Assembly (NCBI GenBank): GCA_964035575.1
Contig: OZ037835.1
Coordinates: 992,001 to 1,056,000 of the forward strand
Direction: 5' to 3'
DNA from: Rhynchopus sp. YZ270_cl-10
Lineage: Eukaryota; Euglenozoa; Diplonemea; Diplonemida; Diplonemidae
Length of the DNA stretch: 64,000 nt
The position numbers and the translations under genes are program-made. The first letter of the stretch is position 1. Each line of letters opens with the position of its first letter. The notes under the pieces were generated by a model. It did no database searches. It was given only the letters and a program-made list of their open reading frames with translations, and was not told the origin of the DNA. Shown here one piece after another: positions 21,149 to 61,894 of the stretch.

Positions 21149-21752
21149 ATATTAAACTTGAAAAACGTGATCCACCCCCGCAAAAAGAAAAACCAGCAAA
21201 AGGGAAGGATGGCACCACGGTGTGCCAGAGAGTGGCTTGATCCCATTTGCTGACTTATACCCAACAAAGAAGCGACACCTAAGTGAACAGGGGCCGTATA
21301 CCACCGCTGGTGGCCTAGGTTAGTATATAAGCCAGTTCAAGGTCCGCACTCTGGCAGCGTCAAAAGAAATAAACAACAATAAAACCACCAGTCATTCCAA
21401 TGGGAGGAACGAATGACTGGCATCTCCTAATTCTCTAAACTGCGGTGAGTGGAACACCCAACTGATGCAAACCACTGCCGCAGGTTAGCACCTACAAAAA
21501 GCAAAGAAAAGAAAAGCAAAAGCTGTGCATGGTCGTAAAGTAGGTGCAGGGTCGCTTAAATCCCTGAGGGCACAAAAAGCCCAGCATACACCTCCTCCAG
21601 TTGCTTTGGACCCTCCAGTATCATGTGCCCGGGTTTGCAAAAGTGCAATGCAACCATCCCACGCGTGGCCTTCGTTCACTCAAAAAAGAGATTATATCCG
21701 GGGACGCCAGGGCAAAAATGCCGGGGGGCTGCCACCTCACGTTTTTGTCCCC
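21149..21752 (-). mobile_element. Non-autonomous LINE-like element at site 3 (604 bp)
   Basis: It separates tcgatacttgtcaacgag (21131-21148) from tcgacacttgtcaacgag (21753-21770), an 18-bp target duplication with one difference, inside the second LRR unit. On the minus strand it begins GGGGAC and ends ...ttaatat. The first ~130 nt may form a divergent HDV-like fold. 21437-21485 shares ctgcggtgag...actgccgc.ggttagc with the site-1 element at ~32738-32790. No coding capacity. The family is assigned by structure only. Confidence 0.65.
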
Positions 21753-22679
21753 TCGACACTTGTCAACGAGGTGCAGCATTCCAGGAACCTGTCTCCAATG
21801 TGAGTCACAATGGACTCAGCACTGAGATCAAGTCTCGTCAATGAAGTGCGTGCCAAGAACCCAAACGGAATGACAGTCGCAACCTCCGCCTGCAGAAGCA
21901 AACACGCCACCTCAGGATCCTCCACACTCTCCAACCTCTCGGCGGTCAGGTCTGTCTCACCCAACGCACGAAGCTCTGCAATGGCTTGGTACTTCTGCGT
22001 CTTCGTGAGGGTGGTAGTCCGTTTTAACGGTCTCTGGCAGGCCGGGCCTTTCTGTGGCCTTCCCAACCAAAAGACCCCCAAAAAACACAGGTACCTGCTG
22101 CGTTTAGTGGTACTTTACCCCAGTCCCTGGAACAGATCGGCAAGCCGACCAGCCCAGGTATGCATGCCAACACTACTGGGGGTGCACTGTTCGATAGCAT
22201 AAAAGAAAAGTCAAAAAGTCAAAAAGACAAGAAGGTCAAACAAAATAGGTACTTCGAACAGGGCTGACAGGAGGGGATTCTCACCCGAGGTTCGGTGCCT
22301 GTCAGGCTGCGATTAGTGGTTCTGGGTGATTCCCTTCTTCCTAGCCACCGTTACCGCGGTGCCCACACCGTAAGAGAATGGGGACGGTTCACGACCGTTC
22401 GTACGCGTCAGCAAAAGTAGGGGTCGGAGTCCAGGCCCGAACCGGAAACATTAACCTCCGTTTTTCGAAACATTAAAAAGTAAAAATGAAAATCAACAGC
22501 AAGAGCAGTGTTGCTGTAAAAGAAACAGCAGCACCGTCAGCTAACATGTCCACACAATATGGCAGACGGCCACACAAAATTCCCCTGATTTGTACAGAGA
22601 AAGTTGTAACTTCTTCCTTACAAGTAAGGGAGTACCGGTAGGGAAGGAGTTACAACAAACAGTGAACAAACTCAAGTAC

Positions 22680-23766: not shown

Positions 23767-23837
23767 CTGACTCAGTACCATGCGAACACGGCGTCCAGGG
23801 GCCCCACTTGGCGGTTGGTCAGACGTTAATTGCCCCC
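23767..23837 (-). ncRNA. HDV-like self-cleaving ribozyme (site-2 element)
   Basis: The 71-nt minus-strand RNA starts at the element's first base. P1 is GGGGGC with GCCCCU, P2 is CUGAC with GUCAG, P3 is CCA with UGG, P4 is CCGUG-UUCG-CAUGG with a UUCG tetraloop, and J4/2 carries CUGA, matching the CNRA consensus with the catalytic C. Order and spacing follow the nested double pseudoknot of HDV-like ribozymes, which many LINEs use to process their 5' end. Predicted by eye only. Confidence 0.75.
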
Positions 23838-24052
23838 TTCTGCGTCTTCGTGAGGATGATTGTGTCACCAGCACTCAGCTGCGTCATGTCCGCTCCTTCT
23901 CCCAGCGGTTCGTCTCCGAAACTCATGCAAAAGCCGTCTTCAGGCAACCCCATTGCAGACGCCACCTTCCGCCGCAAGCCCTCCACTGTGTCATCTGCAC
24001 CCACCTCGACTGTGTGCTGATTCGTGTCGAAACCCTTGATGTTCAGGTCCAT

Positions 24053-32654: not shown

Positions 32655-33256
32655 ATAAACGTTTTTAAAAATAGGATGGAACACCCCGTTCCGAAGAGGA
32701 ATGCAGCCACCCCGAAAAAGTGGGGGTGTGTCGCCAGTCTGCGGTGAGAAACTCCTCCCTGAGTCAAAACTGCCGCTGGTTAGCGCTGGCTAAGGTTCCC
32801 TTTTCACCCGGTCACAATCGAGTCTCGCTCCGTCGGCGTTGACTGCACTGCAAAGCCCCTTGGTCCACCGTCGTAAAAAGACACCACAAAAAGCGTAGGT
32901 AGGTGGGGGACCGGCAGGTTACAGACAGAGGCAGTACGGAGCTAAGGTGTCGGCGGTCGCGGGTTTCCGTGGAGGCCTGCCCCCCGTGGAGGTCTTGGGA
33001 TCTGGGAGTTGTGGAAGTAATCGGCTCAGAGTACCCTGCATTCCATGCACGACTCGAGCTCCTTGTGGTAGGATATTGGGGTCCCGGGAAGCACCCTTCG
33101 CCCCGAGGTCCCACCACCCCAGACAGTTTGTAGGTCTAAAAGCACAACGTACTTGTCCAGGACCTGGCCGCTCTTGGGTTCTCTCGAAAAAAAGATACTA
33201 ATCCCGTACGCCCGTGCACCGCAAAAATGTGCTATGGGGGGCGGTCCGCCGTCGGG
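32655..33256 (-). mobile_element. Non-autonomous element at site 1 (602 bp)
   Basis: Flanked by the 20-bp duplication actcttcaacctctcggcgg (32635-32654 and 33257-33276). The insertion point is the same, within one base, as that of the full LINE at 40666-48027. Its ~65-bp 3' end (plus-strand ataaacgtttttaaaaatag... to about 32720) matches the LINE's 3' end, and then the two diverge. The 5' end does not start with G and shows no ribozyme, so it may be 5'-truncated. No coding capacity. Confidence 0.8.
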
Positions 33257-33341
33257 ACTCTTCAACCTCTCGGCGGTCAGGTCTGTCTCACCCAACGCAT
33301 GAAGCTCTGCAATGGCTTGGTACTTCCTCATCTTCGTGAGG

Positions 33342-35132
33342 TAGGGGTCCGTTTTCGATGCATGCACCCCTATCCGAGATAGGTGATACAATACATCGTG
33401 GAGGTGATGTTACATAAGTCCATCACCGCCCCTGCTGTGTCCATCCTTCTGCTTCTTCTTGCTGAAGAGGCCTCCCAACGTCGTCTGTCGCCCCCCCGCA
33501 GTGTCGTGGTGGCGGCGGCAGCAGTGGTCCAGGGTTGTCTTGTCCCGCACGCAATTTCCGCATCTCGAGAGTCTGTGTCGTGTGCACGCCTCGTGTCGAA
33601 TGGCCAGCCCATCGCCGTCGGAGTGGTGCGCATAGCAGCAGTGCCTCAGGTCTGCCATCTGGTCCTTCGCACAGGCGTCACATCGGGCCTTCCGGTGCTG
33701 CACACAGATCGCAAATGGCCCAATCGAGATCGCTCCTGCAGGTGCCTTCACAGGCGCGTCTCCTGGCTTCACGTGCTCATCGTGCCTGTAACGTATGGGC
33801 ACGTTCTCCTCTTCTGCCTGCTCGAAAAAGCGCAGCGCCCTCCTTCCCCTCTCGTCTGCGGGGGGGTATGCCGTCTCAGCAGCGTACTCCCCCATCCACG
33901 TACCCCTCGCTCTACCGTTGCCCCTAATCTCCCCCTCCGTCATGCCTTCCGTCTTGCGCTGCTGTCGGTACGCCGTGCCAGCGTCGAAAAGTGCACGTAG
34001 AACACGTATGGTCTCTTCACCGCCGGCAAAAACAGGACGGCAGTCGATACCGGCGAGACCGTGTGCCCCGAACGACGTCAGTGTCATAGCTATCTTCGGC
34101 TTACCCGGATGCAGTGGCGTTGCAGCATGGGTTCGGAGAGTAGACAGCATGTGACCAAAAGTGGTCGCTTTCGCCATTTCGTTGTGGGGAAGAGCTTCTG
34201 GCATCACGTCGTCGCCGTCGCCGTCGTCGCTGCCACCCTCCCCACCCCCGTCATCCATTTCCCCGTCGCCACCCCCACCACCATTGACAACGCCCCCAGC
34301 CCCGTTCCCCGGTTGCTTCACTTTTGGCGGCTTTTTTCCAGTCTTATCTCCGGGGCGGATGTCCATCCCCGTGGAGACCTCGAAGTCAATGAGGAGTTCC
34401 ATGTGCGAGACTTCGCGTCCAGCCTCGTTGCTCCACCGCAGGCCTCCCAGCCAGTAGGCAATCGCCAGCAGCAACGCACGTCCATACGGCCATTTCTTCA
34501 CTGGGAGGGTGCAGCTTCCTAACACATTCGGATACTGCGTCGTCGTGTCCGCATCCGGTTCCCATGTCCACGGATAACGCTCTTGCTCCAGTTGCGGCTT
34601 CATCTCTTGTGTCCTGTTTTGCCGGTATCGCTCGATGAGGATCCTCACCATCATCATCTGCAGGTCTGCAACACGGGCGGTGGCCAAAGGTGTTTCCGGT
34701 GTGCACATTCCGCAGATAGACAGACAGTTCGGCCAGTTCGTTCTGTCAATGTTCAGGAGTAAGGGGTAGTCCGTGCGGATGCTTTCCCATGCGACACACT
34801 CCCACCACATATGCTTGGGATCCTCATCCACCCCTGCAGCACAATACGGGCAGGTGGCCGTTTCTCGTAACTTTGCCCTCGCAAGTCGCACCCCCGTGAG
34901 AGTACCGTCAGCCACGATGTGTCGTAACGTCCCCGCCTCGTAGTCCGACAAAACTTTGCTCTTGGTAAGCGCCAGTGTCTTCTCCTTGTCCACCCCTGCT
35001 CGGATCCCCCGCAGGTTAGCTCTGCCTCCGCCTTTTGCATTCACGTCTGTCTTCGTACTGGAGAGCCGTACGAAGAACATGCGCTCCCGCACAAGATGGC
35101 CGAGTTCCCCTAGCTCAATGGTCTTCACATCG
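33342..35132 (-). mobile_element. 5'-truncated LINE at site 2
   Basis: A 1791-bp LINE 3' part inserted in the Ubl coding sequence, with the 18-bp duplication ttcctcatcttcgtgagg (33324-33341 and 35133-35150). Endonuclease and RT domains are missing, as expected from incomplete reverse transcription. The remaining protein resembles the C-terminal third of the 41-48 kb LINE before diverging. It is a different LINE lineage with a different target. Confidence 0.85.
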
Positions 35133-35347
35133 TTCCTCATCTTCGTGAGGATGATTGTGTCACCAGCACTCAGCTGCGTCATGTCCGCTCCTTCTCCCAG
35201 CGCTTCGTCTCCGAAACTCATGCAAAAGCCGTCTTCAGGCAACCCCATTGCAGACGCCACCTTCCGCCGCAAGCCCTCCACTGTGTCATCTGCACCCACC
35301 TCGACTGTGTGCTGATTCGTGTCGAAACCCTTGATGTTCAGGTCCAT
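33410..35347 (-). CDS. In-frame host Ubl-LINE C-terminal chimera
   Basis: 645 codons from the host ATG. Residues 1-71 are the Ubl domain; the rest is the LINE tail. It contains a CX2CX9HX4C motif (CPYCAAGVDEDPKHMWWEC), a block like the full LINE (YPWTWEPDADTT and SHMELLIDFEVSTG), an acidic Gly/Asp linker, and two Cys/His modules of the form CxxHRKxRCxxCxKD...HCCxxHH. It ends near QTTLGGLFSKKKQK, similar to a PCNA-binding PIP box. Whether this chimera is expressed is unknown, but the frame is open throughout, which suggests a recent insertion. Confidence 0.65.
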   Translation of the reverse strand: MDLNIKGFDTNQHTVEVGADDTVEGLRRKVASAMGLPEDGFCMSFGDEALGEGADMTQLSAGDTIILTKMRNDVKTIELGELGHLVRERMFFVRLSSTKTDVNAKGGGRANLRGIRAGVDKEKTLALTKSKVLSDYEAGTLRHIVADGTLTGVRLARAKLRETATCPYCAAGVDEDPKHMWWECVAWESIRTDYPLLLNIDRTNWPNCLSICGMCTPETPLATARVADLQMMMVRILIERYRQNRTQEMKPQLEQERYPWTWEPDADTTTQYPNVLGSCTLPVKKWPYGRALLLAIAYWLGGLRWSNEAGREVSHMELLIDFEVSTGMDIRPGDKTGKKPPKVKQPGNGAGGVVNGGGGGDGEMDDGGGEGGSDDGDGDDVMPEALPHNEMAKATTFGHMLSTLRTHAATPLHPGKPKIAMTLTSFGAHGLAGIDCRPVFAGGEETIRVLRALFDAGTAYRQQRKTEGMTEGEIRGNGRARGTWMGEYAAETAYPPADERGRRALRFFEQAEEENVPIRYRHDEHVKPGDAPVKAPAGAISIGPFAICVQHRKARCDACAKDQMADLRHCCYAHHSDGDGLAIRHEACTRHRLSRCGNCVRDKTTLDHCCRRHHDTAGGRQTTLGGLFSKKKQKDGHSRGGDGLM

Positions 35348-35494
35348 GTCTTTGTTGTGGTTTTGTGTTCTGATCTCTGTGTGTGGTGGGGTGTTGGTGG
35401 TGATCAGAGTGCGAAAACAATAAAGTAAGTGCATGATTATCGACCTCCCCCTGCCCCTGTCAAGCACCGCACAGCCTCCACGCTGTCTCCACCC

Positions 35495-35700
35495 ACCCCA
35501 CGCAAGGAAGAACGCCACAGGTGCTCTCGTACTGCAACCACAGACAAGCTGAGGTGCCAGACAAATTGCACGAAAGCACCTCACGGCCGGCCACAGCTTC
35601 CCCTCTCCCATCATTTCCACAAAACGATGCAGGGAAGCGCCACACCCAAACCCACACTCACAACACACCTCCCTGCCCCCACAGACCTTCACCGCAACAG
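35495..35700 (-). repeat. Shared upstream module, copy 3
   Basis: The same block as at 6166, here ~150 bp upstream of the start codon of Ubl-LRR copy 7. Confidence 0.7.
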
Positions 35701-36249
35701 GGAGAACACCCAAACCCCACATCAACCTGCAACATCAGCACACCCCCATTCGCACTGCCCGGACACAACACATGACCACCCCAGATCACACACAGCACAA
35801 CTAATGCATGCGCACCTCGTCTCAACAGCAGGCACCTTGACTGGCGAGAGCCCCACCACACTCGGTAATACGGACACTTCAGTCCACATGGTGCAAGCAA
35901 CGGGTGGTACCAGGGAGCATCCTCCACGGGAGACTTTTTACGCCGTCCCAAGGCAAAAGAGAATTGGGAAACAATACTTTTGCAGCATCAAAGAAGTGGT
36001 GACTGGGGACATTTCCTCCTTTTTAGTCTTTGGCTAAAAGCACAAAATACAAACTCACTTCTGGTACAGGGTCGTGGGAGGATGCGTCCAATGGAAATCA
36101 CGTCGGTAGAATAGTTCGAGAATGTAGGTTTTTACTATTTTTGAAAACTTGGTTGTATTAGTGTAGCCACCCTAGAGTGTGCTTCACTATACTATTTTTA
36201 GTTTATGTGGATTGGGCCTTGGAGAGGGCACCACCGCACGAGGCAGTGT
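35701..36249. other. Intergenic region
   Basis: No recognisable gene; 36000-36200 is AT-richer and unique in the window. Confidence 0.45.
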
Positions 36250-39683: not shown

Positions 39684-40665
39684 CCCAAGCACCCCAAGAC
39701 GACAGTGAAAGACCACGTGGTGTCAACGAGTTCAGGAGTGATGAATTGCAGATAAAAAGGGGGTTGGGTGGGGAGGTACGTTGTAATGAATAAGACATGG
39801 GTTTTTGTGGGGATTCTTTTGCAGCACAGTTGAACATAACACAATGTGTGGAACGTCTTGCTCAGCACAGCTCTCCTCTCGCACCAAGTAGCAGTCTGTG
39901 CCACGGTGAGCAAGACTGTGCCCCTCTTCTTCTCCGAACCAGAGGACGCAGCAGACATACTGCCAGAGACACTCCACCTCGGGGAGGTGCTGCCCTCCCA
40001 CCAACACACCACGTCGTCATTGTGCGTGTCTCCGTCGCTTCTGGCTTTGCTCGGGGGACTCGTCTCTGCTTCGTTTCGGACGTGCTTCAACCACAAGCTT
40101 CCTCAGCTTCTCGCCCTTCCTCACTTCGTTGGACACAACACTGCTGCAGCCGGAAAGGTAAATGCTCGCCAACGAAGTGCAGCCCGCAACAATATTTGTA
40201 CCGAATAAACCGCTACTAATGTGCGTCACGTTGCTGAGTGGAGATAAATCGAGGGTCGTTAAGCTGATGCATTCCTGAAGGAAGTGCGCACCAACGTGCG
40301 TCAGGTTGCTGAGTGGAGATAAATGGACGTTGGTTAAGCTCTTGCATCCGTAAAGAAAGCCGCCGTCAATCAGCGTCACGTTGCTGAGTGCAGATATATC
40401 CAGGGTCGTTAAGCTGCTGCAGTGCTGAAGGAACCACGCACCAACCTGCATCACATTGCTCAACCCAGAGAGGTCGACACTTGTCAACGAGGTGCAGTTG
40501 GCCAGGAAGCAGTCTCCAATGTGAGTCACAATGGACTCAGCACTGAGATCAAGTCTCGTCAACGAAGTGCGTGACAAGAACCCATTCGGAATGACAGTCG
40601 CAACCTCCGCCTGCAGAAGCAAACACGCCACCTCAGGATCCTCCACACTCTCCAACCTCTCGGCG

Positions 40666-43600
40666 ATAAACGTTTTTAAAAATAGGATGGAGCACCCCGG
40701 TCCGAAAAGGAATGCAGCCACCCCTGGCTTCAGGCTCGCGAACCCAGCGTTGATGTAACACAGGGTTTCACGGGCCAAAACCAGAAAAAAATGAAAAATT
40801 GAGGGTTCAACGACTGCGCCAACTGGTCTCATGCGACGTTGAACCAACTTAAAATCTAGAATCTTGTGTCAACTTGTAAAGAAAAGCAATGAATATTAAA
40901 ATTACCGGTTTCAGGCGTGGCGTACACGTCTGCTGCCATCTACGCTGGGATAGCCGTCCGGTTTGAACTTGGGGTTCAACAACAGTGCCAAATGGACTTA
41001 TGCGTCGCTGTGTCAACTGAAAAACAATGAAAAACAAGAATGTCGTTGAGGAAGATTGAAATGCATGAAAAACAAGAAGAACAAGGTAAAATATCTACAG
41101 AGGGTGCTGTCCTAGCTTGTCCTCTTTCGTTGTCTCGCCCACACTAAGCTTCTCAACGGCCGTGCAGGCGAGCTTTGTGGCGTTCACGTTGTTACTGCTG
41201 TCGATGTGCACCAACGTGATGCTTCGGGTCGCTCTCAGCTTGTCAAGCTCACCCCGCGCCTCTTTCTGGAGGTGGGCGACTGCCGCGTATGGTCTGCAGT
41301 GCTCGTTCACCTGGTCAACCACGGTTCTACTGGATCCGTAGATGTTCAGTGGTGTGGTGTCTGTGTCGCTCTTCAGGTATTCGAGGCACATCAGCAGTCC
41401 TTCATACTCCGCGACGTTCAGGGTTGTGTCCGCCAGGCGACTGCTGGCTGTCCACCGCACCTCGCCATCTATCTCGAGGCGTGCACCTGCGCCCGATCCC
41501 TGGCAAGTGTTTTTCTTCACCCTCGCCCCCGGCTGCCTCACGTTGCAGTATCCGCCGAAGAAGATGCGAGTGTGTCCGGTGGGTTTCTTTGGTTTTCGTC
41601 GAGCCTGCTTCTGCTGCTTCTGCTCAGCAGCCAAGCGGATGTGCTTCGCAATTCTGTCTGCTCTCTCCTGTTTGCAGTCCTCGTCTAGGGGTGGGAGCTC
41701 TGTGTTCGTCCAGGATTTGTTCCCTTTGCAGAGGGTTGGCAGGGACCGGATCGTCTTGAGCACCTCAGCAGGTTCGGTGAGGATGGGTCGTCTCGTGATC
41801 GCTAGGGTTCCCCACTTGATGCCTAGGTCTAATGGGGCGAACACTTTGCTCTTGGGGTAGATGGTGCCCGAGAAGAGGTACGCGTTTGCTGCCACTATCT
41901 TTGCCTTAGCCATCCAGTTGCTGAACCAGGTGATTTTGTCGGTGATCATGGAGCTCTCTCGGGAATTGGGTTCCTCTGTGGTGAGCTTTGCTCCTGTGTG
42001 CGCTTCGAAGTCCAGCGCCAGCTCCAGGTGCGAGACGTGCTGTGATTTCCCATTGGACACCGTCGGCCACTTTAGGCTTTCCAGCCACTCCTTGAGTGCG
42101 AGGTATCCTTCCGCTTTGTACGGCCACGCGTCTGGCACCTCGTCAGGAAGTACTCCTATGTAGGTCTCGTATGGGCCTTCTGGTTCCCATGTCCAGGGAA
42201 AATTGTCCATTTGGCTCGTCTTCGTTGTAGTGGTACCGCGTTTTCTCTTGTCCTCCCTCTCTAGGGCGATGTCTGAGTACATGAGAAGCAGCAGCTCTAG
42301 GGCTTCTCTGTTCGGCACTTCCGGAATCATCTGGAAGCCGGCGGGGAGAATGGCGTTGAGGCGCAGGCATTTCGGCCAGCTTTCTCTTACTGCTGGATCG
42401 GACACTCCTGCGTATTTGTGCTGTTCGCGTATGTGTGCGGTGTGGCTGCATTGTTCCCACATGTGTTCAAAGTCCTCCACACCTGTGCCGCAGTGCTCGC
42501 ACGTGTCACTGGTGCTCATCTTCATTCTTTTGCGCCTGTCCTGTGTGAGCTCCGCTCCTGCAAGAATGTTCCTCATGTACCCTGCACGCAGTGGATCTGT
42601 GTTCTTGTAGCTGTTCCACACGGCGTTGATCGTGCGATAATCGATGCCATCTTTAACCCCTTGCATGTCCTCCCTCCTTGTCTCGAGTCTACGGCAGAAA
42701 TCGTCCCTGATACCGTCTCGGAGTTGGTGTCGAAGAAGGTCACCCTCGGGTTCGTCGAGGTTCATCTGTGTTGTGTGCGGGGGCAATAGGGTGTTGTTCT
42801 CCCAGCGCCAGTTCATGGATTGGGTGGTGCGGAGGAGGATGTCTACCGGTCCACAGTATTTTACTCTCGACGTCCGCTTCAGGATACGGATCTCGTCTAT
42901 TAGGGTTCTAATCTCCTGGTTCTTCCCCATGGTGTAGAGCGCGAGCAGGCGTTGGTACTTGAGGTAAGATGTTGGGTCTGTCCGGTGTAGCGGGTTCAGC
43001 ACTCCCCTCACTATTTCACTGCATCTGCTAGGTAGGCCCCTCCAAATCGCCGCCGTCACTGCTTTGGTGAGCCTTCCAGCGGTGGTGGACAGCGGCTCGT
43101 ACGTCTCGCAGCCGTAGAGTGCCATGGGCATTATTTTTGTCGCCACCAGTTCGGCTCTGCCTTCAAAGGGGACGTTGAGGTGAGGGATACGTCGCGCACA
43201 TGTCTCAGCTTTGCGCACTCGCTTGTCCAGCTTTGTCGCTGCTTCCTTTTTCTTGGCTACGGCCAGTCTGATCACTGCGCCGAGATTGTCCAGTTCCTTC
43301 TTCTCCTGTCTCAGCTGGGTGTCTCCGAGCATGAGCTCCAGCTTTTCGGTCTTGGCTGTCGAGAAGGAGAAACTACTTCCGTACGTGAGGTCGGTCTTGG
43401 TGGCGAAGTCGTGGGACACTGTGAGGCCTTTCCTCAATTGTGCGGTGTTGTTCGAGGTCATGGTGGTGTCGTCCGCGTACAGGCTTGTCCGACATCTGGT
43501 TTCCGTCCGAACCGCCGCCTCCCACACTGCTAGGAGGGCGTTCAGCAGGATAATGCTCAGCGCACATCCCTGCAGAATGCCATTGTTCGCTTTGAACTCC

Positions 43601-46600
43601 TCACCGACCGTACCGTATAGTTTGAACCGCCTCTTCAGGTCCCTGTACATGCTCTTGAGGGGCCGCGTGATCTTCATGTCGATCCCCATTTTCTCCACAA
43701 GACTGAAGGTTATGTCCCACGGTATGGTGTCGAAGCATTTCTTAATGTCCAGAAATACTCCTCGCAGCGTGTTCCCCGACACCATTGCTTTTTCGACCAG
43801 GAGTGCGGTGAGGTAAAAAGCGTCACGTGTTCCGTGCCCAGTCCTGAAGCCGTGCATGGATTCCGGTGCCCATGTCTCTTGCCACACCATTAGGCTCGTC
43901 AACCTTGTCTTTGCCCATAGCCGATATACCGCCGACATCACGGAAATTGGTCGGTGGTCGAGTGGTTGTGGGTCCTCCACCTTGGCGATCATGCTCACGG
44001 TCGCGTGGAGGAGAGCTTCTGGCCATACGCCCGTCTCTTCTACTTGGTTGAGGATTGATGCCAGCCTGTCGAAGATCCCCGTTGGGAGAAGCGCAAGTTC
44101 TTCTGGGTGCCATCCGTCTGTGCTGGGGGCCTTCCCCTTCGGCATGCTCTCGGCCACGGCTTTCAGCATCCTTCCGGTTAGGGGTTCTACGTGCATCGGC
44201 CGTTGAGGTATGTGTGTGCCAAACCTTTCCTCGAACGCTTCCCACGTGGGTGTGTCACTCAGGGTGTTGTGCTTTTGAAGTATGGGAAGCCATGCCTCAC
44301 GCAACCACGTGTCCATGTCCTCCACATTCGCGGTCTCTTCCGTCCCGCGCTTCATCGTGTTGCACCGCATTTTGGCTCCGTTGAGGCGCTTGTAGATGAG
44401 CCCTGGTGTGGTGTGCCATTGCGTGCGTATCATGCGGTACCTTTGCGTGGCCCTGTCCCTCTCCAGGTTCTTTCTGGCAGTTTCGAGTCTCTGGTGCAGG
44501 CGCTGTATCAGCTCCAGTGTCGTGCTGGCCTGCGGCTCCTCCTCTGGGGTAGCGTCGAGAATGCTCACCAGCCCTGCCTTCGCTTTGTCCCACGCCTTGC
44601 GTGCGCTGGGTGTGAGGGCTCCTTTGGTGCGTAGAGTGTTGCCGACCTCAGTTAGTCTGCGGATCGTCTTCCGGATGCGCGTCATCTTGAGGGTCTCTCC
44701 TGCGTCGCCTTCGCGAGACTGTCTGCTGCACAGCCAGGTGCGTCGCAGTTTGGGTGGTCGGCCTTTGCGAAAACATGCTGCTGAGTTGTCGTCTCCCTGC
44801 CGTGCCCAGAAGTTGGTCGCATCCTCATTCCATGCTTTCCACTTGTCCTCTACCAATGTGCTTGCGTGCCATTGTGCTTTGGAACCATCGCAGATCTCTT
44901 CAGCCTCCTTTTCAAGGTCTGCCTTCGTTTTCTTCCTGCTCAGTTCATCCTGTTGTAGCATAGGGGGCCTTTCCTGCTTGAGCACACGCTGCCGGTACGT
45001 CATATTTTTAAATGTCGCGTCCAGGGGGATGTGTGAAGGTATTCCGGCCGTCCCCGTTTTGCACCCTGCCAGCGCAAGCACCGCGATTTGGTTGGCCAGT
45101 ATGATGTCAATTCGTGAGCACACACTTTTGGCTTCAGACTTTGTGCTCTTACCGATGTGGGTGTGCTCTGGCTCTTGGTTGGCCCAGCCCGCGGCTCGTT
45201 CGGCACAGTCCGTCCATCGTTCTGAGCTGATGGCTAGGGATATTGCTTCGCTTGAGCTGGGTTCTGGGTGGCTGTTGCAATCCCCGAGGATAATCGCTGG
45301 TACGTCCCCTATCTCTGCTTCTGCAAATACATCCGATAGGAAGCTCTCGCGCTCTTGCTTTGCTTGCGGGGAGTTGCCGACTTTGGCGTATATCACGAAT
45401 AGGTGTAGAAAATGGTTCCCTGCCCCATGTGCCACCTTTGCGTGCAGGTAACGCTTTGAGTCCCAGAGTCTCTTTGCTCGTTCAGTATCTCTCCTGACCA
45501 CACTTGCTGGTATGCCTCGTTTCACCATTAGGCCCACCCCCTTGTGCTCTCCGTAGCTCTGTTGTATTGCATTTGGAAGTAACTTTACTGGGCACCCCCA
45601 GAGACCTGTCCAGCCTTGTTCATACAGCGTTCGGGAAGCTTGGGCCTGTTTCTTCTGTGTGAGCCGAGTCTCCTGCAGTGCGACTATGTCGTTGTCCCAA
45701 CTCCACACCTCCTCCTGGTGAGCATTCATTGAGGTGATGTTGGCAGTACGTATGGACAGGTTTGGAGTGGCCCGGGCAGCGCGGCGTCGCTTTCTCTCCG
45801 TCTTGGTACGTTTCCGTGAGCGAGACACTGCGATATTCGTGTCCAGGTTCTCCAGCGTGACACAGCGGTTGCCTTCTGCCTGCGTCGTTGCAATCAGCGA
45901 CAGCAGCCCCTCGGTTGCTTTGAGGCGGTCGAAGTGCTCGGGCCTGTACGTGAGCACAACTGGGTTCGATGTAGGTGGTCCGCCGACGTGGCTAAACCGT
46001 TTCGCTCTGGCATCCAGTACCCAGATGGCCCTGTCGAGTATGCTTGCCGCAGTCTGTAGCTCACGTTCTCCACCGTACGTTCCTTGCATTCTCATTTTGG
46101 CTAGGTGTTGCGTGTAGGTGGGAGGTTCGTTTGCCTCAGGAGAGTAGCTGTCAGCATAGAGGTCACTGTCGTCGTTTTGCAGTACGTCCACCACCCGTTG
46201 TCGCAGTGAGTTCGTTGTCCACCCCTCGCTCTGCTCAGCTATGGCAGTGAATAGGCAGTCCCCGTCTGGCGCTACTGCTATCCTTGTAGAGTTGATACTG
46301 CGGGCTGTTGCGTCCAACCACTCCTTGTGGTCGGTGATGGCCCTCAGTGGGTTCACGGGATTGTCGTTGTTTTTGGGGTAGGCGCTCCTACCTATCCCCG
46401 GTTCTATGTGCGATTCTAAGTACGTATCTAATCTAGTGGGGTCTGCCTTTGCGTCCAGCCAGTTTCTAGTTTGTTCTAATTCTAAGAGGGGGTCGGGAGT
46501 TGATTTACAGGGGATAGGGGAAGGAGAGTTCAGAGATCGAGGTTGAAGTCGAGCAGGTTCGCTTGTCCTTGGCTTTTCCCTGGGTCGTCTTTTCCCTTTC

Positions 46601-48027
46601 CCTTTCCCTTCTTCCCCGCCAGCGGCGACGCGGAGAAGATGTCGTCGAGGGAGGCGGCCGCGGATGGCGGGGCGGTGGTTCCCCCTTTCCCCTTTCCCCT
46701 TTCCCGCCTTCCCCTTTGCAAGTGGGGTCTTTGCCCCCTTGTTTGTCTCCGCGGGAGACGGCGTGGGTGCCTGCGGCGGAGTCTTCAGCGACTCTGCGTC
46801 AGGGAGTGGTGATGGGGGTCGTGGGGAGCTGGGCTGTGAGGCGGTGGTGGCGTTGGCGTTGGTGTTGGTGCTGGTGTTGGCGGATACCACCCTCAGGATG
46901 TGCTGCAGGCACTCCTCCGTCGAGATCTGCCGAGCCTCGATGCTCTGCAGACGCCCATCCATGCCGTGTAGCACGGCCGTCGTTTCGGCGTGCTGCGACG
47001 CCTGTCGTTCCAGCAGGGCTTCGATGCCCTTGCCCATCCCTTCCACCCCGATGCTCATGGCCTCGAGTCCCCTGCCCATGTGCAGAAGGGCAGCCGTGGT
47101 CTCCTGGCCTGTGCGTGATAGCTGTGTCAGCGCGGCCGCGTTCTGCTGCACCACCGAGAGCAGCGGGTCGAGGTTCTGAGGTGTGGTGAAGGTCTGTTGG
47201 TGATGGGATCTTTGCTCCTTGCGCTGCAGCCATGCCAGCTCCAGCTGTGTGCCTTCCTCGAAGAGAAGTTTGCCTCTGGCTGCCCCGTACTCCTGCCTGA
47301 ACTCTGCAATGGTATACTTATCCTTGCGGTTCCTCACCGTGGGGTCGGGGACTCTCTTGGGGGCGTGGTTGTGGTTGGTGGTGGTGGTGGTACTAGTATC
47401 CTTTGCTTCTGCGGGGAAGATTGACACCACAACGTTTTGCCACTTGATGCTGCGGTGTGGGGGCTGGGACTCCGCACGCACCACGAGGGTCTTCTCCCCC
47501 GTTCTGCCCTTGTTGAGCAGCGTCACCACCCGCGCCCCCTCCCACTGCATCGCCTTCAATGCGGTGACGCAGTCCGCTCTGGTTGCCTGGGGTGGGACAG
47601 GTCTGAGGTCGTATACCCGGGCGGCGGAGTTCGTTGCCTTGCTGTCGGGTATCTCGAGTGTGAATGGGGGGGTGTCGTCCATAGCCTCCGGGGTGTCGCC
47701 GCTGCTTCCTCCCCTTAGCCTACCCAGCTCCCACACGTTGCAGTGCGTCCTGCACATCCGGAGCGACTCCTTGTCGCTCATGTCCCTTCCGTTGATGGTA
47801 AGGCGTTGCACGTCTCTGCGTCCACCTGTCTTCGCTCGCACTGCCGCCTTCAGGTCAGCCACCGAGTCCGCGTCGCTGACGTCCACTGTCACTGTCTTTC
47901 CAGTAAGCGTTCGCACAAAAATCTGTCTTTTTTCTTCGTCGTTTTCTTCTTCTTCTTCTTCCGAGTCTTTGCCGCAGTCCACTGCGTTGCCCGGGGTCAC
48001 CTCGTGGAGGTGCTCGGTAAAAACCCC
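40666..48027 (-). mobile_element. Full-length site-specific LINE (7.36 kb)
   Basis: The 5' end at 48027 starts GGGG and folds as an HDV-like ribozyme; the 3' end at 40666 has no long poly(A). The target duplication is 19 bp (40647-40665 and 48028-48046). One polyprotein frame runs through. The 3' UTR (40666-41094) contains an imperfect duplication of ~175 bp (ttcaggc...gggttcaac at ~40730 and ~40908). All domains are present and the frame is open, so the element looks recently inserted. Clade uncertain: an APE plus OTU layout is known from some protist LINEs such as Dualen/RandI, but no RLE endonuclease is recognisable here. Confidence 0.9.
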
Positions 48028-48309
48028 ACTCTCCAACCTCTCGGCGGTCAGGTCTGTCTCACCCAACGCATGAAGCTCTGCAATGGCTTGGTACTTCTGC
48101 GTCTTCGTGAGGATGATTGTGTCACCAGCACTCAGCTGCGTCATGTCCGCTCCTTCTCCCATCGCTTCGTCTCCGAAACTCATGCCAAAGCCGTCTTCAG
48201 GCAACCCCATTGCAGACGCCACCTTCCGACGCAAGCCCTCCACTGTGTCATCTGCACCCACCTCGACTGTGTGCTGATTCGTGTCGAAACCCTTGATGTT
48301 CAGGTCCAT
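41095..48309 (-). CDS. LINE polyprotein fused to host Ubl: ubiquitin, OTU, APE, RT, CCHC, RNase H-like
   Basis: 2404 codons from the host ATG. Residues 1-94 are host Ubl; 95 onward is the element. Ubiquitin homologue 128-201 (RQIFVRTLTGKTVTVDV...LRGG; Arg in place of Met1). A Pro/Ser-rich stretch and coiled-coil-like stretch follow (GRGLEAMSIGVEGMGKGIEA). OTU protease near 665-805: DGDC with Cys685, and PEHF with His792. APE endonuclease: Glu880 (QETRL), Asp1010/Asn1012 (GDCN), Asp1068 (RID), His1093 (SHIPL). RT: motif A Asp1521 (FLDIKKCFD), YADD 1611-1614. CX2CX8HX4C at 1937-1954. An RNase H-like C-terminus (~2250-2390) keeps AEYEGLL but lacks the usual Asp in GSSRTVVDQVN and NATKLA. The element itself has no Met before the ubiquitin. 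Confidence 0.9.
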   Translation of the reverse strand: MDLNIKGFDTNQHTVEVGADDTVEGLRRKVASAMGLPEDGFGMSFGDEAMGEGADMTQLSAGDTIILTKTQKYQAIAELHALGETDLTAERLESGVFTEHLHEVTPGNAVDCGKDSEEEEEENDEEKRQIFVRTLTGKTVTVDVSDADSVADLKAAVRAKTGGRRDVQRLTINGRDMSDKESLRMCRTHCNVWELGRLRGGSSGDTPEAMDDTPPFTLEIPDSKATNSAARVYDLRPVPPQATRADCVTALKAMQWEGARVVTLLNKGRTGEKTLVVRAESQPPHRSIKWQNVVVSIFPAEAKDTSTTTTTNHNHAPKRVPDPTVRNRKDKYTIAEFRQEYGAARGKLLFEEGTQLELAWLQRKEQRSHHQQTFTTPQNLDPLLSVVQQNAAALTQLSRTGQETTAALLHMGRGLEAMSIGVEGMGKGIEALLERQASQHAETTAVLHGMDGRLQSIEARQISTEECLQHILRVVSANTSTNTNANATTASQPSSPRPPSPLPDAESLKTPPQAPTPSPAETNKGAKTPLAKGKAGKGKGERGNHRPAIRGRLPRRHLLRVAAGGEEGKGKGKRRPREKPRTSEPARLQPRSLNSPSPIPCKSTPDPLLELEQTRNWLDAKADPTRLDTYLESHIEPGIGRSAYPKNNDNPVNPLRAITDHKEWLDATARSINSTRIAVAPDGDCLFTAIAEQSEGWTTNSLRQRVVDVLQNDDSDLYADSYSPEANEPPTYTQHLAKMRMQGTYGGERELQTAASILDRAIWVLDARAKRFSHVGGPPTSNPVVLTYRPEHFDRLKATEGLLSLIATTQAEGNRCVTLENLDTNIAVSRSRKRTKTERKRRRAARATPNLSIRTANITSMNAHQEEVWSWDNDIVALQETRLTQKKQAQASRTLYEQGWTGLWGCPVKLLPNAIQQSYGEHKGVGLMVKRGIPASVVRRDTERAKRLWDSKRYLHAKVAHGAGNHFLHLFVIYAKVGNSPQAKQERESFLSDVFAEAEIGDVPAIILGDCNSHPEPSSSEAISLAISSERWTDCAERAAGWANQEPEHTHIGKSTKSEAKSVCSRIDIILANQIAVLALAGCKTGTAGIPSHIPLDATFKNMTYRQRVLKQERPPMLQQDELSRKKTKADLEKEAEEICDGSKAQWHASTLVEDKWKAWNEDATNFWARQGDDNSAACFRKGRPPKLRRTWLCSRQSREGDAGETLKMTRIRKTIRRLTEVGNTLRTKGALTPSARKAWDKAKAGLVSILDATPEEEPQASTTLELIQRLHQRLETARKNLERDRATQRYRMIRTQWHTTPGLIYKRLNGAKMRCNTMKRGTEETANVEDMDTWLREAWLPILQKHNTLSDTPTWEAFEERFGTHIPQRPMHVEPLTGRMLKAVAESMPKGKAPSTDGWHPEELALLPTGIFDRLASILNQVEETGVWPEALLHATVSMIAKVEDPQPLDHRPISVMSAVYRLWAKTRLTSLMVWQETWAPESMHGFRTGHGTRDAFYLTALLVEKAMVSGNTLRGVFLDIKKCFDTIPWDITFSLVEKMGIDMKITRPLKSMYRDLKRRFKLYGTVGEEFKANNGILQGCALSIILLNALLAVWEAAVRTETRCRTSLYADDTTMTSNNTAQLRKGLTVSHDFATKTDLTYGSSFSFSTAKTEKLELMLGDTQLRQEKKELDNLGAVIRLAVAKKKEAATKLDKRVRKAETCARRIPHLNVPFEGRAELVATKIMPMALYGCETYEPLSTTAGRLTKAVTAAIWRGLPSRCSEIVRGVLNPLHRTDPTSYLKYQRLLALYTMGKNQEIRTLIDEIRILKRTSRVKYCGPVDILLRTTQSMNWRWENNTLLPPHTTQMNLDEPEGDLLRHQLRDGIRDDFCRRLETRREDMQGVKDGIDYRTINAVWNSYKNTDPLRAGYMRNILAGAELTQDRRKRMKMSTSDTCEHCGTGVEDFEHMWEQCSHTAHIREQHKYAGVSDPAVRESWPKCLRLNAILPAGFQMIPEVPNREALELLLLMYSDIALEREDKRKRGTTTTKTSQMDNFPWTWEPEGPYETYIGVLPDEVPDAWPYKAEGYLALKEWLESLKWPTVSNGKSQHVSHLELALDFEAHTGAKLTTEEPNSRESSMITDKITWFSNWMAKAKIVAANAYLFSGTIYPKSKVFAPLDLGIKWGTLAITRRPILTEPAEVLKTIRSLPTLCKGNKSWTNTELPPLDEDCKQERADRIAKHIRLAAEQKQQKQARRKPKKPTGHTRIFFGGYCNVRQPGARVKKNTCQGSGAGARLEIDGEVRWTASSRLADTTLNVAEYEGLLMCLEYLKSDTDTTPLNIYGSSRTVVDQVNEHCRPYAAVAHLQKEARGELDKLRATRSITLVHIDSSNNVNATKLACTAVEKLSVGETTKEDKLGQHPL
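47961..48027 (-). ncRNA. HDV-like self-cleaving ribozyme (LINE 5' end)
   Basis: A 67-nt minus-strand RNA starting at the first element base. P1 is GGGGUU with GACCCC, P2 is CCGAG with CUCGG, P3 is ACC with GGU closing the loop UCCACGA, then GGGCAAC, P4 GCAG-UGGA-CUGC and J4/2 GGCAAAGA (CNRA match CAAA with the catalytic C). GGGCAAC-P4-GGCxAA parallels the HDV genomic ribozyme. The predicted cut falls at the host/element junction. The sequence is also translated in the chimeric frame. Confidence 0.82.
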
Positions 48310-53200: not shown

Positions 53201-54190
53201 CCCACAATGGGGTGATCAGGGGTACCTTGCTGCCACTCTGGTCACAGAAGCATTGGTGTGGTATGGTGGCCATGGGCGTAAGTGCACTGTGTGGATACAG
53301 AGCCTCTAAGTAATATAGTAGTGCCGACTATTAGCTGGCACCACTTTGCGGGCTGGTCCTGATCCAGGGTCTCGGCAAAAAAACCCCCAAGACCTCATAA
53401 AAACCCATAATATTATAAACCCATTTTAACAGAGGGTAAACATCCACACAGGTCTTACACTACATAAAAGGACAGAAAAAACGAATGCCGAAGACAGAAA
53501 AGGGGCAAGACATGGAGGAGGCGTCCTCAAAGGAACGTATGGCATGACGCTGGGTTATGGGGCTCTAGATCTATCGCACTCTATAGAGACGAACCGACGC
53601 AGTCCAAGGTCCTTAAGAACCCGATGAGTGCATACAGAGAACGGAACTACCTCGGTATGACGTTGCGCAGCGTATGTTGCTATCATGTATTTGGGAGTAC
53701 TGCGGTGCACAGAAGCATGGAGTCTTGAGACAGGTAGTGTGGAAAAGGGGAGGCGTGGCTACATGACGCACAAGCCAAATATCAGTGCAAAGGCGCACAG
53801 CGGATTGGAACCTTTTTCTGATTCCAGAAGGGGTGTTGCGAGGCTGTGCATGAGCACAATGCCGAGGCACACCGGGGAAAGCAAAGAACCAGCCCATGGG
53901 TGTTCAGATGAAGTGCCGCAGTCCTACCCAGGTGGCGAGGATCCTAGAGAGGCAGGACCCAAGCAGCTACACAGGGAGACTCGCTTCGCCGCAGGTCTGG
54001 TGCAGAAGCGGATCTCAACAACGGGTGTCACGACGTGTGTAGCTGGTCGTCTGCAGAGATGCCTCTCCGCTACTGTGCAGCGTCGGATGCTTCAGCCACA
54101 TAGATGGCTGCACGACTGGCTTAGAGAGGTTCACGAGGGGCGCCAGCCAGAAACCTGTCAACATCAATCTGAACGTATATGGGTGAGTCT
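53201..54190. other. Unassigned region
   Basis: A plus-strand frame (53685-54180) and minus-strand frames are open but resemble nothing I know. A ~45-bp direct repeat (tcaggggtacctt.ctgccac...) occurs at 53213-53258 and 54721-54766 and brackets this region with the microsatellite and palindrome, which suggests a single inserted or duplicated block. Confidence 0.35.
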
Positions 54191-54193
54191 TTC

Positions 54194-54457
54194 AGTTGTT
54201 GTTATTGTTGTTATTGTTGTTATTGTTGTTATTGTTGTTATTGTTGTTATTGTTGTTATTGTTGTTATTGTTGTTATTGTTGTTATTGTTGTTATTGTTG
54301 TTATTGTTGTTATTGTTGTTATTGTTGTTATTGTTGTTATTGTTGTTATTGTTGTTATTGTTGTTATTGTTGTTATTGTTGTTATTGTTGTCATTGTTGT
54401 TATTGTTGTTATTGTTGGTATTGTTGTTATTGTTGTTATTGTTGTTATTGTTATTGT
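54194..54457. repeat. 9-nt microsatellite (ttgttattg)n
   Basis: About 29 units of ttgttattg with a few substitutions (e.g. tcattg near 54390, ggtatt near 54418). It is open in most frames (poly-Leu, Val/Ile, Cys/Tyr, or Asn on the other strand), so frames here are not genes. Confidence 0.95.
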
Positions 54458-54458
54458 T

Positions 54459-54596
54459 CACGGTGGCCAGTTTGATGTGGGAGAGCGTCAAAAGCGGACG
54501 AAAATACAGGTTGAGAATTGCTATCCCGCGGGGAGCGTGCGCTCTCCCAAAAAACGTCAATTTTTTGACGCTCTCCCGCTCACACTGGCCACCGTG
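54459..54596. mobile_element. Palindromic foldback element, 35-nt arms
   Basis: 54459-54493 (cacggtggccag...gagagcgtcaaaa) pairs with 54562-54596 with about four mismatches. The loop is ~68 bp, with a second internal hairpin (aaacgtcaattttttgacg). It abuts the microsatellite exactly. MITE-like. Confidence 0.65.
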
Positions 54597-54599
54597 TTG

Positions 54600-55419
54600 C
54601 TGCATATTTTTCACACTTTTCACATGCCCCTTCACAGACACCTCTTTTCCATCGTAGCGGGGGTATCCAGTCTTTCTAAAGCTGGCTCATACCAACGACA
54701 GCAGAAGCTGAAGCAGGAGGTATCAGGGGTACCTTTCTGCCACTCTGGTCACAGAAACATAGGGGTGGTTGTGAAACCATATTCTGGGTTTTGGGGGCTT
54801 TTGGGCAAAAAATACACTTTTTTTTGACCCATTTTTGGGTATTTTAGGGTGGTTTAAGAGGGACAAGGCCACCACATGACGTTGGTGACCAACAAGCTGC
54901 AGGACAGCGTGGATCGGTACGCCGTCGCACGAGGATGGGTGACTAGTGTCCGCAACCCTGAGACTGTTTTTGAAGAGGTCGCTTGTTCCGTCTGCAGGGA
55001 CGTAAAGAAGATGGCCACAGGCATCATAGGGACAGAACATGGTGCCCAGTTCGTGGCGTCGGTCATGGAACACATGAGAGTGCGAATGGGAAGAGGACAG
55101 CGGTAGTGTTCTGGCAAAGACGAGGAATGTTGGAAGAGGGTATGGCAAAGGATGTTGAGGGCCAGGGGGCTAAGTCGCTTTGCCAACTCGGGATTGAGGT
55201 GACTGCCGCCATGGGCTCCACAGCGGTCAAGTGGGCATTGACATGAGATACGATCATCGTCCTTCACCCACATAAACATGGGGAAGGTCGTCCAAGCATG
55301 AATCATGCTAGTGGGGTGCTTTTTCCGGTAGCCGGCTGCCTTCTGCTTTTCGAGCAGGACACCTAGAGTATGTGGTGTGGAATCAGACTTGAAGTTACTA
55401 GTTGAATTTGTACAGGGGA
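54600..55419. other. Unassigned region
   Basis: Frames on both strands between 54860 and 55360 are open and protein-like in composition (plus: KLQDSVDRYAVARGWV; minus: SMIHAWTTFPMFMWVKDDD), but I recognise neither. The minus-strand frame runs on into the NLR-like relic at 55420. Confidence 0.3.
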
Positions 55420-60357: not shown

Positions 60358-61740
60358 TTAGTTTTTAACCCTCGCGACCTCCTCTGCACCTGCGTCAATC
60401 AGCACCTGCACCACGTCTATGTCCCCCCTACGCACCGCATACTGCAACGCAGTGTGGTTATTTGTAGCATTTTGGTGATTCACATCCACCTCTGGCAAGC
60501 CCACAAGATAGCGCACAGTCTCGGTGCATCCATAATATGCCGCAAGCATAAGATACGTGCGTCCTTCGTCGTCTGTGGCACGCACATCCGCACCTGCTTC
60601 AATCAACATCTTCACAACGCCAGGTGCTTCTAAAGCGCAAGCATCGTGCAGAGGCGAACATCCATCGTTGTTCTGTGTGTCGATGTCTGCACCTGCATCA
60701 ATCAGCACCTGCACCATGTCTGTTTCCCCCTCATCCAGCGCATGATGCAACGCAGTGTAGCTATTTCTAAGATTTAGGTAATTTACTTCCACCTCTGGCA
60801 AGCACAAAAGATAGCGCACAGTCTCGGTGTGTCCAGAACACGCCGCAAGCATAAGACACGTGCGCCCTTGGTCGTCTACGGCACGCACTCCCGTACCTGC
60901 TCTGACCAACATCTTCACAATGTCAAGTGCTCCTGAATCGCAAGCAGCGTGCAAAAGAGACTCGTCCTCGTTGTTCTGTATGTCGATGTCTGCACCTGCA
61001 TCAATCAGCACCTGCACCACGTCTGTTGCCTTCTTCTGTACCGCTACGTGCAACGCAGTCTCGTTATCTTCAATGTCTTGCTGATTCAGTTCCACCTCTG
61101 GCAAGCTCACAAGATAGCGCACAGTCTCGGTGTGTCCAGAACACGCCGCAAGCATAAGACACGTGCGCCCTTCGTCGTCTGTGGCGCGCACTCTCGCACC
61201 TGCTTCAACCAACATCTTCACAACCTCAAGTGCTCCTGAATCGCAAGCATAGTGCAGAGGCGAACGTCCCGCGTTGTTATTTGTGTCGATGTCTGCGCCT
61301 GCATCAATCAAGACACGACACACTGCAGGGTCTGACCACATGGCCGGACAGTCATCCTCCTCACCTGCGCTGTGCTTGGACCCATGCCGGACAAACGCCA
61401 CGTTGTTGCAGACGCACTTCCAATGCTGCAAGAGGACCTCCGTGCACGCAACGTGGTCTGCGTGGACACACTCACTCAGCAGGATCCCAAAGCCCATCTG
61501 CGTTGTCTCAACATACGGAAGAAGCAGTGTGAGGCATTCATCGTGGTTCCCTCTGCATGCCTCGTGCGCAGCATCGAGGGCCACTTTTTTCCTTACTAGG
61601 TTCAACTTCTCAAGGACCGCCCGCACGGCAGTCGTGTCGCCGTTCCTGGCAGCCTCCACCAAGACTTCGTCTGCAGAAAGCTTTCTTCTCTTTCGTGGCT
61701 TCTTGTCCTGCATGCTGTCTGCGTGTCGCTTCTTCGGCAT
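60358..61740 (-). CDS. Ankyrin-repeat protein, copy D
   Basis: About 460 residues from MPKKRHADSMQDKKPRKRRK at 61740 (extra Lys relative to copies A-C, shared with copy E). Basic N-terminus, common leader, then about nine ankyrin repeats (e.g. NNAGRSPLHYACDSGALEVV, NDGCSPLHDACALEAPGVVK). Upstream in-frame codons (to 61866) are in non-conserved DNA. Ends GAEEVARVKN. Confidence 0.88.
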   Translation of the reverse strand: MPKKRHADSMQDKKPRKRRKLSADEVLVEAARNGDTTAVRAVLEKLNLVRKKVALDAAHEACRGNHDECLTLLLPYVETTQMGFGILLSECVHADHVACTEVLLQHWKCVCNNVAFVRHGSKHSAGEEDDCPAMWSDPAVCRVLIDAGADIDTNNNAGRSPLHYACDSGALEVVKMLVEAGARVRATDDEGRTCLMLAACSGHTETVRYLVSLPEVELNQQDIEDNETALHVAVQKKATDVVQVLIDAGADIDIQNNEDESLLHAACDSGALDIVKMLVRAGTGVRAVDDQGRTCLMLAACSGHTETVRYLLCLPEVEVNYLNLRNSYTALHHALDEGETDMVQVLIDAGADIDTQNNDGCSPLHDACALEAPGVVKMLIEAGADVRATDDEGRTYLMLAAYYGCTETVRYLVGLPEVDVNHQNATNNHTALQYAVRRGDIDVVQVLIDAGAEEVARVKN

Positions 61741-61894
61741 TGTGTGTTTGTGTATTGGTGCTGTTGAGGAGGGGTGGGTGGGAAGGAAGCTATACAAACA
61801 CTGAAATACCCCACGCCTTGTGTCTTTATTCGTCGTTTGCTGTTTTGTTGATCGCATCTGATACACAACTTCCCATTCAGCAGTGAAGACCGCC

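Follow-up and report, generated by a model that had tools for sequence, protein, structure and literature searches.

A site-specific LINE in the Ubl-LRR genes of a diplonemid, with a predicted HDV-like ribozyme at its 5' junction and a ubiquitin-first reading frame that lacks a start codon

Long interspersed nuclear elements (LINEs) that are processed by a ribozyme carry a hepatitis delta virus (HDV)-like ribozyme at their precise 5' junction and are co-transcribed with the target gene, according to the passages quoted from PMC12203849 and PMC3774820. For R2, ribozyme release and a suggested cap-independent initiation are reported in the quoted part of PMC12203849; for L1Tc of trypanosomes, that of PMC4748587 reports an HDV ribozyme, an internal promoter and a 2A sequence, and that of PMC4035085 the spread of the ribozyme through related elements. 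OTU or Ulp1 domains are described in several transposon classes (PMC2836005, quoted part). The D. papillatum genome paper puts the number of retroelement gene models at about 2,500; its main text contains neither 'ubiquitin' nor 'leucine-rich'. Among the open-access titles and abstract openings listed, we found no report of ubiquitin in LINEs (searched with ORF1, OTU, deubiquitinase and cysteine protease) and none of LINEs with a protein-coding target. Here we analyze a LINE in a 64,000-nt stretch of Rhynchopus sp. YZ270_cl-10 (contig OZ037835.1, positions 992,001 to 1,056,000; hereafter the window), where it interrupts a gene of a host family encoding a ubiquitin-like (Ubl) domain and leucine-rich repeats (LRR). 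The explanation that we prefer, and consider reasonably probable, is a start-codon-less, ribozyme-processed, site-specific LINE of the apurinic/apyrimidinic endonuclease (APE) type, whose ubiquitin, once cut off by a deubiquitinase, would leave its proteins with one and the same N-terminus.

On the minus strand, 48309-41095 forms one uninterrupted frame of 2,404 aa that begins at a host ATG and closes with a stop codon. An earlier note, made from the letters alone, had described this single frame, which enters the LINE from the host Ubl start codon across a codon-exact boundary and encodes ubiquitin ending in LRGG, OTU with Cys685 and His792, APE and a reverse transcriptase (RT) with YADD; Pfam and script checks recovered each of these. 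LINE codon 1 is 48027-48025, LRGG ends at 47707 and YADD lies at 1611. Pfam matched RVT_1 (aa 1451-1673, 7e-22), OTU (aa 681-768, 2e-7) and APE/Exo_endo_phos (aa 872-1076, 3.6e-6) in this frame; the OTU His codon (45936-45934) lies outside the Pfam stretch, and the zf-RVT match was under the cut-off. The ubiquitin match of 6e-15 adds up two stretches, one in the host Ubl and one in the LINE (best stretch 130-186); the LINE ubiquitin alone, from copy L009, scored 37.7 bits (E 1.8e-9). In the PDB, the LINE ubiquitin matched solved ubiquitins at 2e-10 to 6e-10 for single-domain chains, and a two-sequence OTU profile matched OTUD3, OTUD5, OTUD1 and OTU1 (best 1.3e-9). On these matches we assign the LINE domains to the ubiquitin family, with LRGG at the C-terminus, and to the OTU family, with Cys and His present. 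By its RT and APE domains, the lack of long terminal repeats (LTRs) and the target-site duplications that its copies adjoin, the element is classed as a non-LTR retrotransposon. Identical 19-nt duplications flank the window copy; the host half on its 5' side has 95-96% identity to intact Ubl-LRR paralogues of the same window (blastn), and the LRR half picks up again on its 3' side (Table 1). By eye, a C-terminal RNase-H-like region was seen at 41600-41150, in which the expected Asp residues seem replaced and Pfam gave no match.

The genome examined comprised 152 Mb in 126 contigs, and 15 copy regions were extracted and oriented. Eight copies, including that of the window, have a complete 5' end at the same nucleotide, which ruled out 5' truncation as the cause of the lost start codon; seven of them extend to the 3' end, L015 being cut short. 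The boundary reads GGGGTTTTTACC in 8/8 copies, although one G may be the host's in L009 and L013. A search with the first 528 nt gave 26 places, namely the eight full-5' copies, L032 (87%) and 17 elements that share only the first 83-84 nt, with the segmental duplicates L029 and L030 counted as separate places. At 19 of the 26 the 5' end adjoins host sequence at the target spot, and at three more the short element C2 and a target-like stretch lie directly upstream, making 22/26; L032 sits at a different position in a Ubl-like gene, and three places are elsewhere. For the 3' ends, the best 40 of 179 candidates from a search with the last 226 nt were scored. When the flanks were compared with the host protein by tblastn, 20/38 were at the spot; L047 and L049 raised this to 22, and L013, L014 and L073, nested at the spot by sequence, brought the count to 25/40 listed 3' ends, with 15 elsewhere. 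Of those elsewhere, L018, L055 and L056 have one off-target flank in common, which reflects either a segmental duplication or a second target that is itself repeated, and L012 and L015 (C4, ~37 kb apart) have the same flanks, which points to a LINE-carrying segmental duplication.

The host family is large: at least 183 matching pieces were counted in the genome (115 of 2,627 candidates scored; some genes yield two pieces), and the protein database holds 779 proteins, with the source given as 'ena' or not at all among the 120 listed. The fusion is an instance of recurrent, site-specific targeting at one exact codon of this family. Distinct copies, one target position and target-site duplications were all found, as in site-specific non-LTR elements, and a site-specific anatomy with a ribozyme-like head is nearly certain. 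The LINE resembles R2 in its site specificity and in the HDV-like ribozyme, here predicted, at the exact 5' junction. R2, however, has a restriction-like endonuclease, one open reading frame (ORF) and an rDNA target, whereas this element has APE, two ORFs, ubiquitin and a protein-coding multigene target; its APE domain and Ubl-LRR target do not fit the R2 clade. The R1 and Tx1 clades likewise combine an APE endonuclease with sequence-specific insertion, but a protein-coding family is not in the part of their target list that is quoted.

The arrangement of ubiquitin and OTU in one protein, as the earlier note had it, was not found outside the window copy. In all seven other aligned copies (L009-L015), ORF1 and ORF2 are in different frames, which ruled out a ubiquitin-OTU polyprotein as the general form. 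ORF1 has 497-518 codons and consists of the ribozyme peptide, ubiquitin and a long region without Pfam match; ORF2 encodes OTU-APE-RT. It uses the -1 frame in six of the seven (L009, L010, L012-L015); its overlap with ORF1 measures 787 nt in L010 and 268-289 nt in the other five. In L011 a 1-nt deletion of its own alters the frame relation. ORF2 of L012 stops early (1,619 codons), and in L014 a stop breaks the frame further on. What makes one long frame of the two in the window copy is a 7-nt insertion, present in this copy only of the eight aligned by MAFFT, through which ORF1 runs into ORF2. Such an accident is what one would expect if a decaying LINE lay by chance in a Ubl gene and its open frame meant nothing; the same 5' end in eight copies, the counts of 22/26 and 25/40 ends at one site and the conservation of ubiquitin, OTU and the ribozyme-like head leave that idea a negligible probability, and the site counts refute a chance origin of the in-frame fusion.

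Scanning eight copies, we found no in-frame AUG inside the element before ubiquitin in any of them. The first in-frame ATGs, at nt 247 and 271, are both inside ubiquitin in 8/8 copies; in subfamily 2 a single earlier ATG, at nt 86, lies out of frame. In the ORF2 frame, no Met precedes OTU in six of the seven copies scanned, and L010 has one. At the place of the supposed ORF2 ATG the codon reads GTG in 8/8 copies, which ruled out a loss of that ATG peculiar to the window copy.

With an in-frame AUG before ubiquitin in 0/8 copies, the host could supply the start, as the earlier note proposed for the window copy and as site-specific targeting would make general: translation from the host AUG would give a Ubl-ubiquitin-LINE fusion, and cleavage at ubiquitin would free the LINE protein. 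The geometry is favorable in that the target lies at a codon boundary, the host is split after the same codon in all insertions and the complete GGGG 5' end preserves the phase. Counting L012 and L015 as one, there are seven distinct insertions, five of which continue the reading frame of the host codons next to them (the window copy, L010, L011, L012, L014); in L009 and L013 the host base is G and there is one G fewer in sum, which puts them out of frame by one nucleotide. A fixed target and a fixed 5' end, however, produce in-frame fusion without selection. The frame from the host ATG is uninterrupted only in the window copy and L012/L015, since another element lies between host ATG and LINE in three of the seven (a G1-like element in L010, C2 in L011 and L014), so the route is open today in only 2/7; C1, a further insertion in the window, likewise forms an open frame with a host ATG. 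Moreover, the ribozyme-like fold exactly at the junction would take off the host AUG. We regard capture of the host start as the main route as unlikely. Host-AUG use is a minority possibility and a fusion via host AUG is not required; the host-LINE fusion is a by-product of targeting that some copies could use. What stands of the original proposal is the insertion inside a host Ubl family, the ubiquitin with LRGG in 9/9 copies and the OTU with its Cys and His.

The evidence for the ribozyme is as follows. The Rfam family RF02682 matched full length from LINE nt 1 with 37.8 bits (E 5.8e-6, on the basis of 181 bases x 4,227 families). The fold is a nested double pseudoknot starting at nt 1, with P1 GGGGU/ACCCC, P2 CCGAG/CUCGG, P3 CACC/GGUG and P4 CGCAG/CUGCG, and over 26 copies 493/494 helix pairs are kept (P1 130/130, P2 130/130, P3 104/104, P4 129/130). 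J4/2 (GCAAAGA), L3 (UCCACGA) and J1/4 (GGGCAA) are identical in 26/26 copies, and the C of J4/2 is presumably the catalytic C, by analogy with HDV ribozymes. As a control, a loose HDV descriptor matched at 186 start positions on both strands of the window; with 14 G/C required in the stems, the LINE start alone was left (in two adjacent registers), and six other starts reached 13. The 32 codons before ubiquitin show no synonymous bias (2 per 18 synonymous, 5 per 78 nonsynonymous sites), as expected of an RNA element. These results suggest that an HDV-like ribozyme probably separates the host RNA from the LINE RNA at the junction, as in R2 and L1Tc.

Several observations weigh against such a ribozyme. 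The RF02682 score lies below the gathering score of 44, and RF00094 scored 16 against 50. An Rfam scan of the whole window at curated thresholds found nothing, nor did a whole-genome RF02682 search, whose controls matched nowhere either. The minimum-free-energy fold of the 83 nt was no better than shuffles (z -0.71) in a program that cannot draw a pseudoknot. No covariation was seen in the ribozyme pairs, because the copies are nearly identical.

The head also occurs by itself. Seventeen elements (L033-L049) have the first 84 of the 528 nt, that is the ribozyme-like head, and no ubiquitin by tblastn. Fifteen of them have the matching 3' tail 1.4-4.5 kb downstream, L047 and L049 are ~1.4 kb long and finish with the tail of the LINE, and 13 contain no stop-to-stop frame longer than 78 codons in the 1.58 kb read. 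By the earlier note's own test, copies without ubiquitin count against its reading; these elements lack it, yet they look non-autonomous and hence were not counted as LINE copies. Presence of the head without ubiquitin in 17 elements means that it is kept apart from ORF1, and most simply it would be kept as RNA. Against this, the head frame runs 38 codons in 15/17 short elements, and 26 and 54 in the other two, and a peptide role is a possible reason for the conservation.

Ubiquitin with intact LRGG is present in 9/9 LINE copies that have a 5' end, which fall into three diverged lineages. Between L009 and L012 it differs by 6 changes at 55 synonymous sites and by 2 at 167 nonsynonymous sites (Fisher P 0.003), and between L009 and L032 by 5 synonymous and 3 nonsynonymous changes (P 0.02). 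The codons look constrained. The changed codons lie mostly before the first ATG, and constraint on the codons before nt 247 suggests that they are probably translated. This bears on a different role for ubiquitin, in which it is no release tag but, for instance, protects the ORF1 protein, recruits Cdc48/proteasome or binds OTU, and the first Met lies inside or just after it. That both in-frame ATGs fall within ubiquitin would suit this role, as would the joint presence of OTU and ubiquitin in one element and of OTU/Ulp1 in several transposon classes (PMC2836005, quoted part); with codons before nt 247 that look constrained, and with RLRGG kept at the C-terminus in all three lineages, we hold it to be possible but rather improbable. 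As for the preferred use of ubiquitin as a release tag, for which we put the chances at about even, some points count on the other side. The selection test is based on few changes. Synonymous divergence is 0.12 in the ubiquitin part and 0.44 downstream, so that recombination or RNA constraint there is possible. In the alignment from the PDB search, a Thr occupies the Ile44 position of the ubiquitin recognition face, which could weaken deubiquitinase binding. A search for ubiquitin-ORF1 found no version from another species, its four hits being P0010, which matches L014, and three ubiquitin proteins.

In the mechanism that we favor, the LINE would be transcribed together with the host gene array, and the HDV-like ribozyme would cut the RNA at the host/LINE junction. 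Translation would begin past the ribozyme without an AUG, a mode proposed for R2, or else at the host AUG of uncut transcripts, and ORF2 would be made by -1 frameshifting; slippery heptamers do occur in the overlap, but among purine-rich repeats, in which heptamers of this kind are frequent, and this tells against the step. Host deubiquitinases, or OTU, would then cut after LRGG, so that from any initial N-terminus the mature ORF1p and ORF1-ORF2p would share one first residue (SSG...). Ubiquitin would thereby take the role proposed for 2A in L1Tc. N-terminal ubiquitin or Ubl is likewise cut off to yield the mature protein in ubiquitin-ribosomal protein and FUBI-eS30 fusions, although these, in the sources as quoted, are cellular genes and not mobile elements. 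Ginger1 and Helitrons (OTU/Ulp1) and NeSL/Utopia LINEs (Ulp1) have a cysteine protease of the deubiquitinase/Ulp type as this LINE does, but no element-borne ubiquitin module is described for them in the quoted parts of PMC2836005 and PMC4640811.

L1Tc/ingi and this LINE were compared part by part. Both have a 5'-terminal HDV-like ribozyme, in L1Tc/ingi the Pr77 promoter/ribozyme, that also occurs in short related elements, APE and RT, and a self-processing module, and both live in a host group with polycistronic transcription and spliced leaders. They differ in that the module there is 2A, whereas here there are ubiquitin, OTU, two ORFs in different frames and a strict protein-coding target; by eye, no NPGP motif was seen in the LINE1 translation. 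A relative, P0003 (an EukProt transcript, 27-29% identical), has a 2A-like GDIETNPGP within residues 1-25 (by eye), and another, P0002, has a weak OTU match at its start (22.6 bits, cut-off 23.3). Both fit the idea that such LINEs change their N-terminal processing modules.

Two further LINE-type families target the same Ubl-LRR genes. The second family, represented by L019-L023 (five of the seven matches listed, 34% identity), occupies the LRR part, with host sequence on both sides in 4/5. It has an ATG; in its ORF1 Pfam matched OTU (1.7e-12) but, at E 0.1, no ubiquitin, and its ORF2 contains RT and APE. Weak HDV-like matches lie ~55 nt inside the element (21.1 bits, E 0.54; 19.8 bits, E 0.14); P1 is imperfect, perhaps a relic. 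An RNase-H-like stretch was seen by eye in its ORF1. The third, LINE-like family, to which C1 belongs, was found at the LTKT/KY site of Ubl in 16 of 20 3' ends examined out of 76 listed matches; in the 251 bases of its 5' end no host boundary was visibly reached. The last residues of its product (window 33410-35725; copies L079-L098), QTTLGGLFSKK, look by eye like a PIP box, the PCNA-binding motif. An ambitious combination, in which the start-codon-less LINE borrows the host start on transcripts that escape the ribozyme, ubiquitin is a 2A-like release device and the Ubl-LRR family receives insertions from at least three LINE-type families, is put forward only tentatively.

The window contains nine Ubl-LRR genes, three of them broken by five insertions (Table 1). 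C2 (0.6 kb) shares with the LINE both the codon of insertion and the 3' tail, and C1 and G1 share a second Ubl site ~20 codons upstream of the LINE site. Rfam gave no ribozyme match in 20700-24200 and no ribozyme family at E <= 1 in C2. Genes of a second family, with ankyrin repeats, are interleaved with the Ubl-LRR genes (3578-4999, 7143-8549, 16973-18613, 60358-61866, 62577-63965), and a long trinucleotide microsatellite at 54190-54660 gives poly-Leu and poly-Asn frames. At L050 (C14:1213001), a spliced-leader-like 20-mer occurs once, just upstream of an ATG, in a retrogene-like setting. Taken with an HSP70 resemblance noted by eye, it points to a euglenozoan and perhaps diplonemid host; comparing HSP70 with the PDB did not narrow this down. 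A search of a phage collection gave no match.

Table 1. Features of the LINE locus and of related insertions in the window (positions of the window).
Feature	Position	Strand	Basis or remark
Interrupted host Ubl-LRR gene, 5' part	48028..48309	-	ATG at 48309; blastn to paralogues; translation
Target-site duplication, 5' copy, 19 nt	48028..48046	-	Identical to 3' copy
HDV-like ribozyme (predicted)	47959..48027	-	First nt is LINE nt 1; Rfam RF02682, helix pairs, descriptor control
Ubiquitin domain ending LRGG, N-terminal part of ORF1	47707..47928	-	Pfam, PDB, AUG scan, synonymous/nonsynonymous counts
7-nt insertion joining ORF1 to the ORF2 frame	46699..46705	-	MAFFT alignment of 8 copies; ORFs
OTU cysteine protease core	46006..46269	-	Pfam, PDB profile; Cys codon 46257-46255
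APE endonuclease domain	45082..45696	-	Pfam PF03372
Reverse transcriptase (YADD)	43291..43959	-	Pfam PF00078
zf-RVT zinc-binding motif, weak	42433..42603	-	Pfam PF13966, below cut-off
LINE frame stop codon	41095..41097	-	ORF translation
3' tail	40665..40739	-	~59 nt in common (~95%) with C2 at 33257-32655
Target-site duplication, 3' copy	40647..40665	-	First base may be the element's
Interrupted host Ubl-LRR gene, LRR half	40017..40646	-	Translation; blastn to paralogues
C1, LINE-like fragment, different Ubl site (LTKT/KY)	33342..35140	-	Short tblastx similarity to C-terminal part of LINE1 ORF2
C2, short interspersed nuclear element (SINE)-like, target site same as LINE	32655..33257	-	Sequence comparison
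G1, 1.8-kb element, nearly same Ubl site as C1	22014..23837	-	Sequence comparison
G2, 0.6-kb element in LRR-coding part, same gene as G1	21149..21753	-	Sequence comparison

One element here targets a multigene family that codes for proteins, has a ribozyme-like fold exactly at its 5' junction and opens a start-codon-less ORF with ubiquitin. It thereby becomes possible to test how AUG-less, ribozyme-processed LINEs fix where their proteins begin, and whether 2A and ubiquitin can stand in for each other. The use of the Ubl-LRR family by several LINE-type families and short elements would broaden the known target choice of LINEs.

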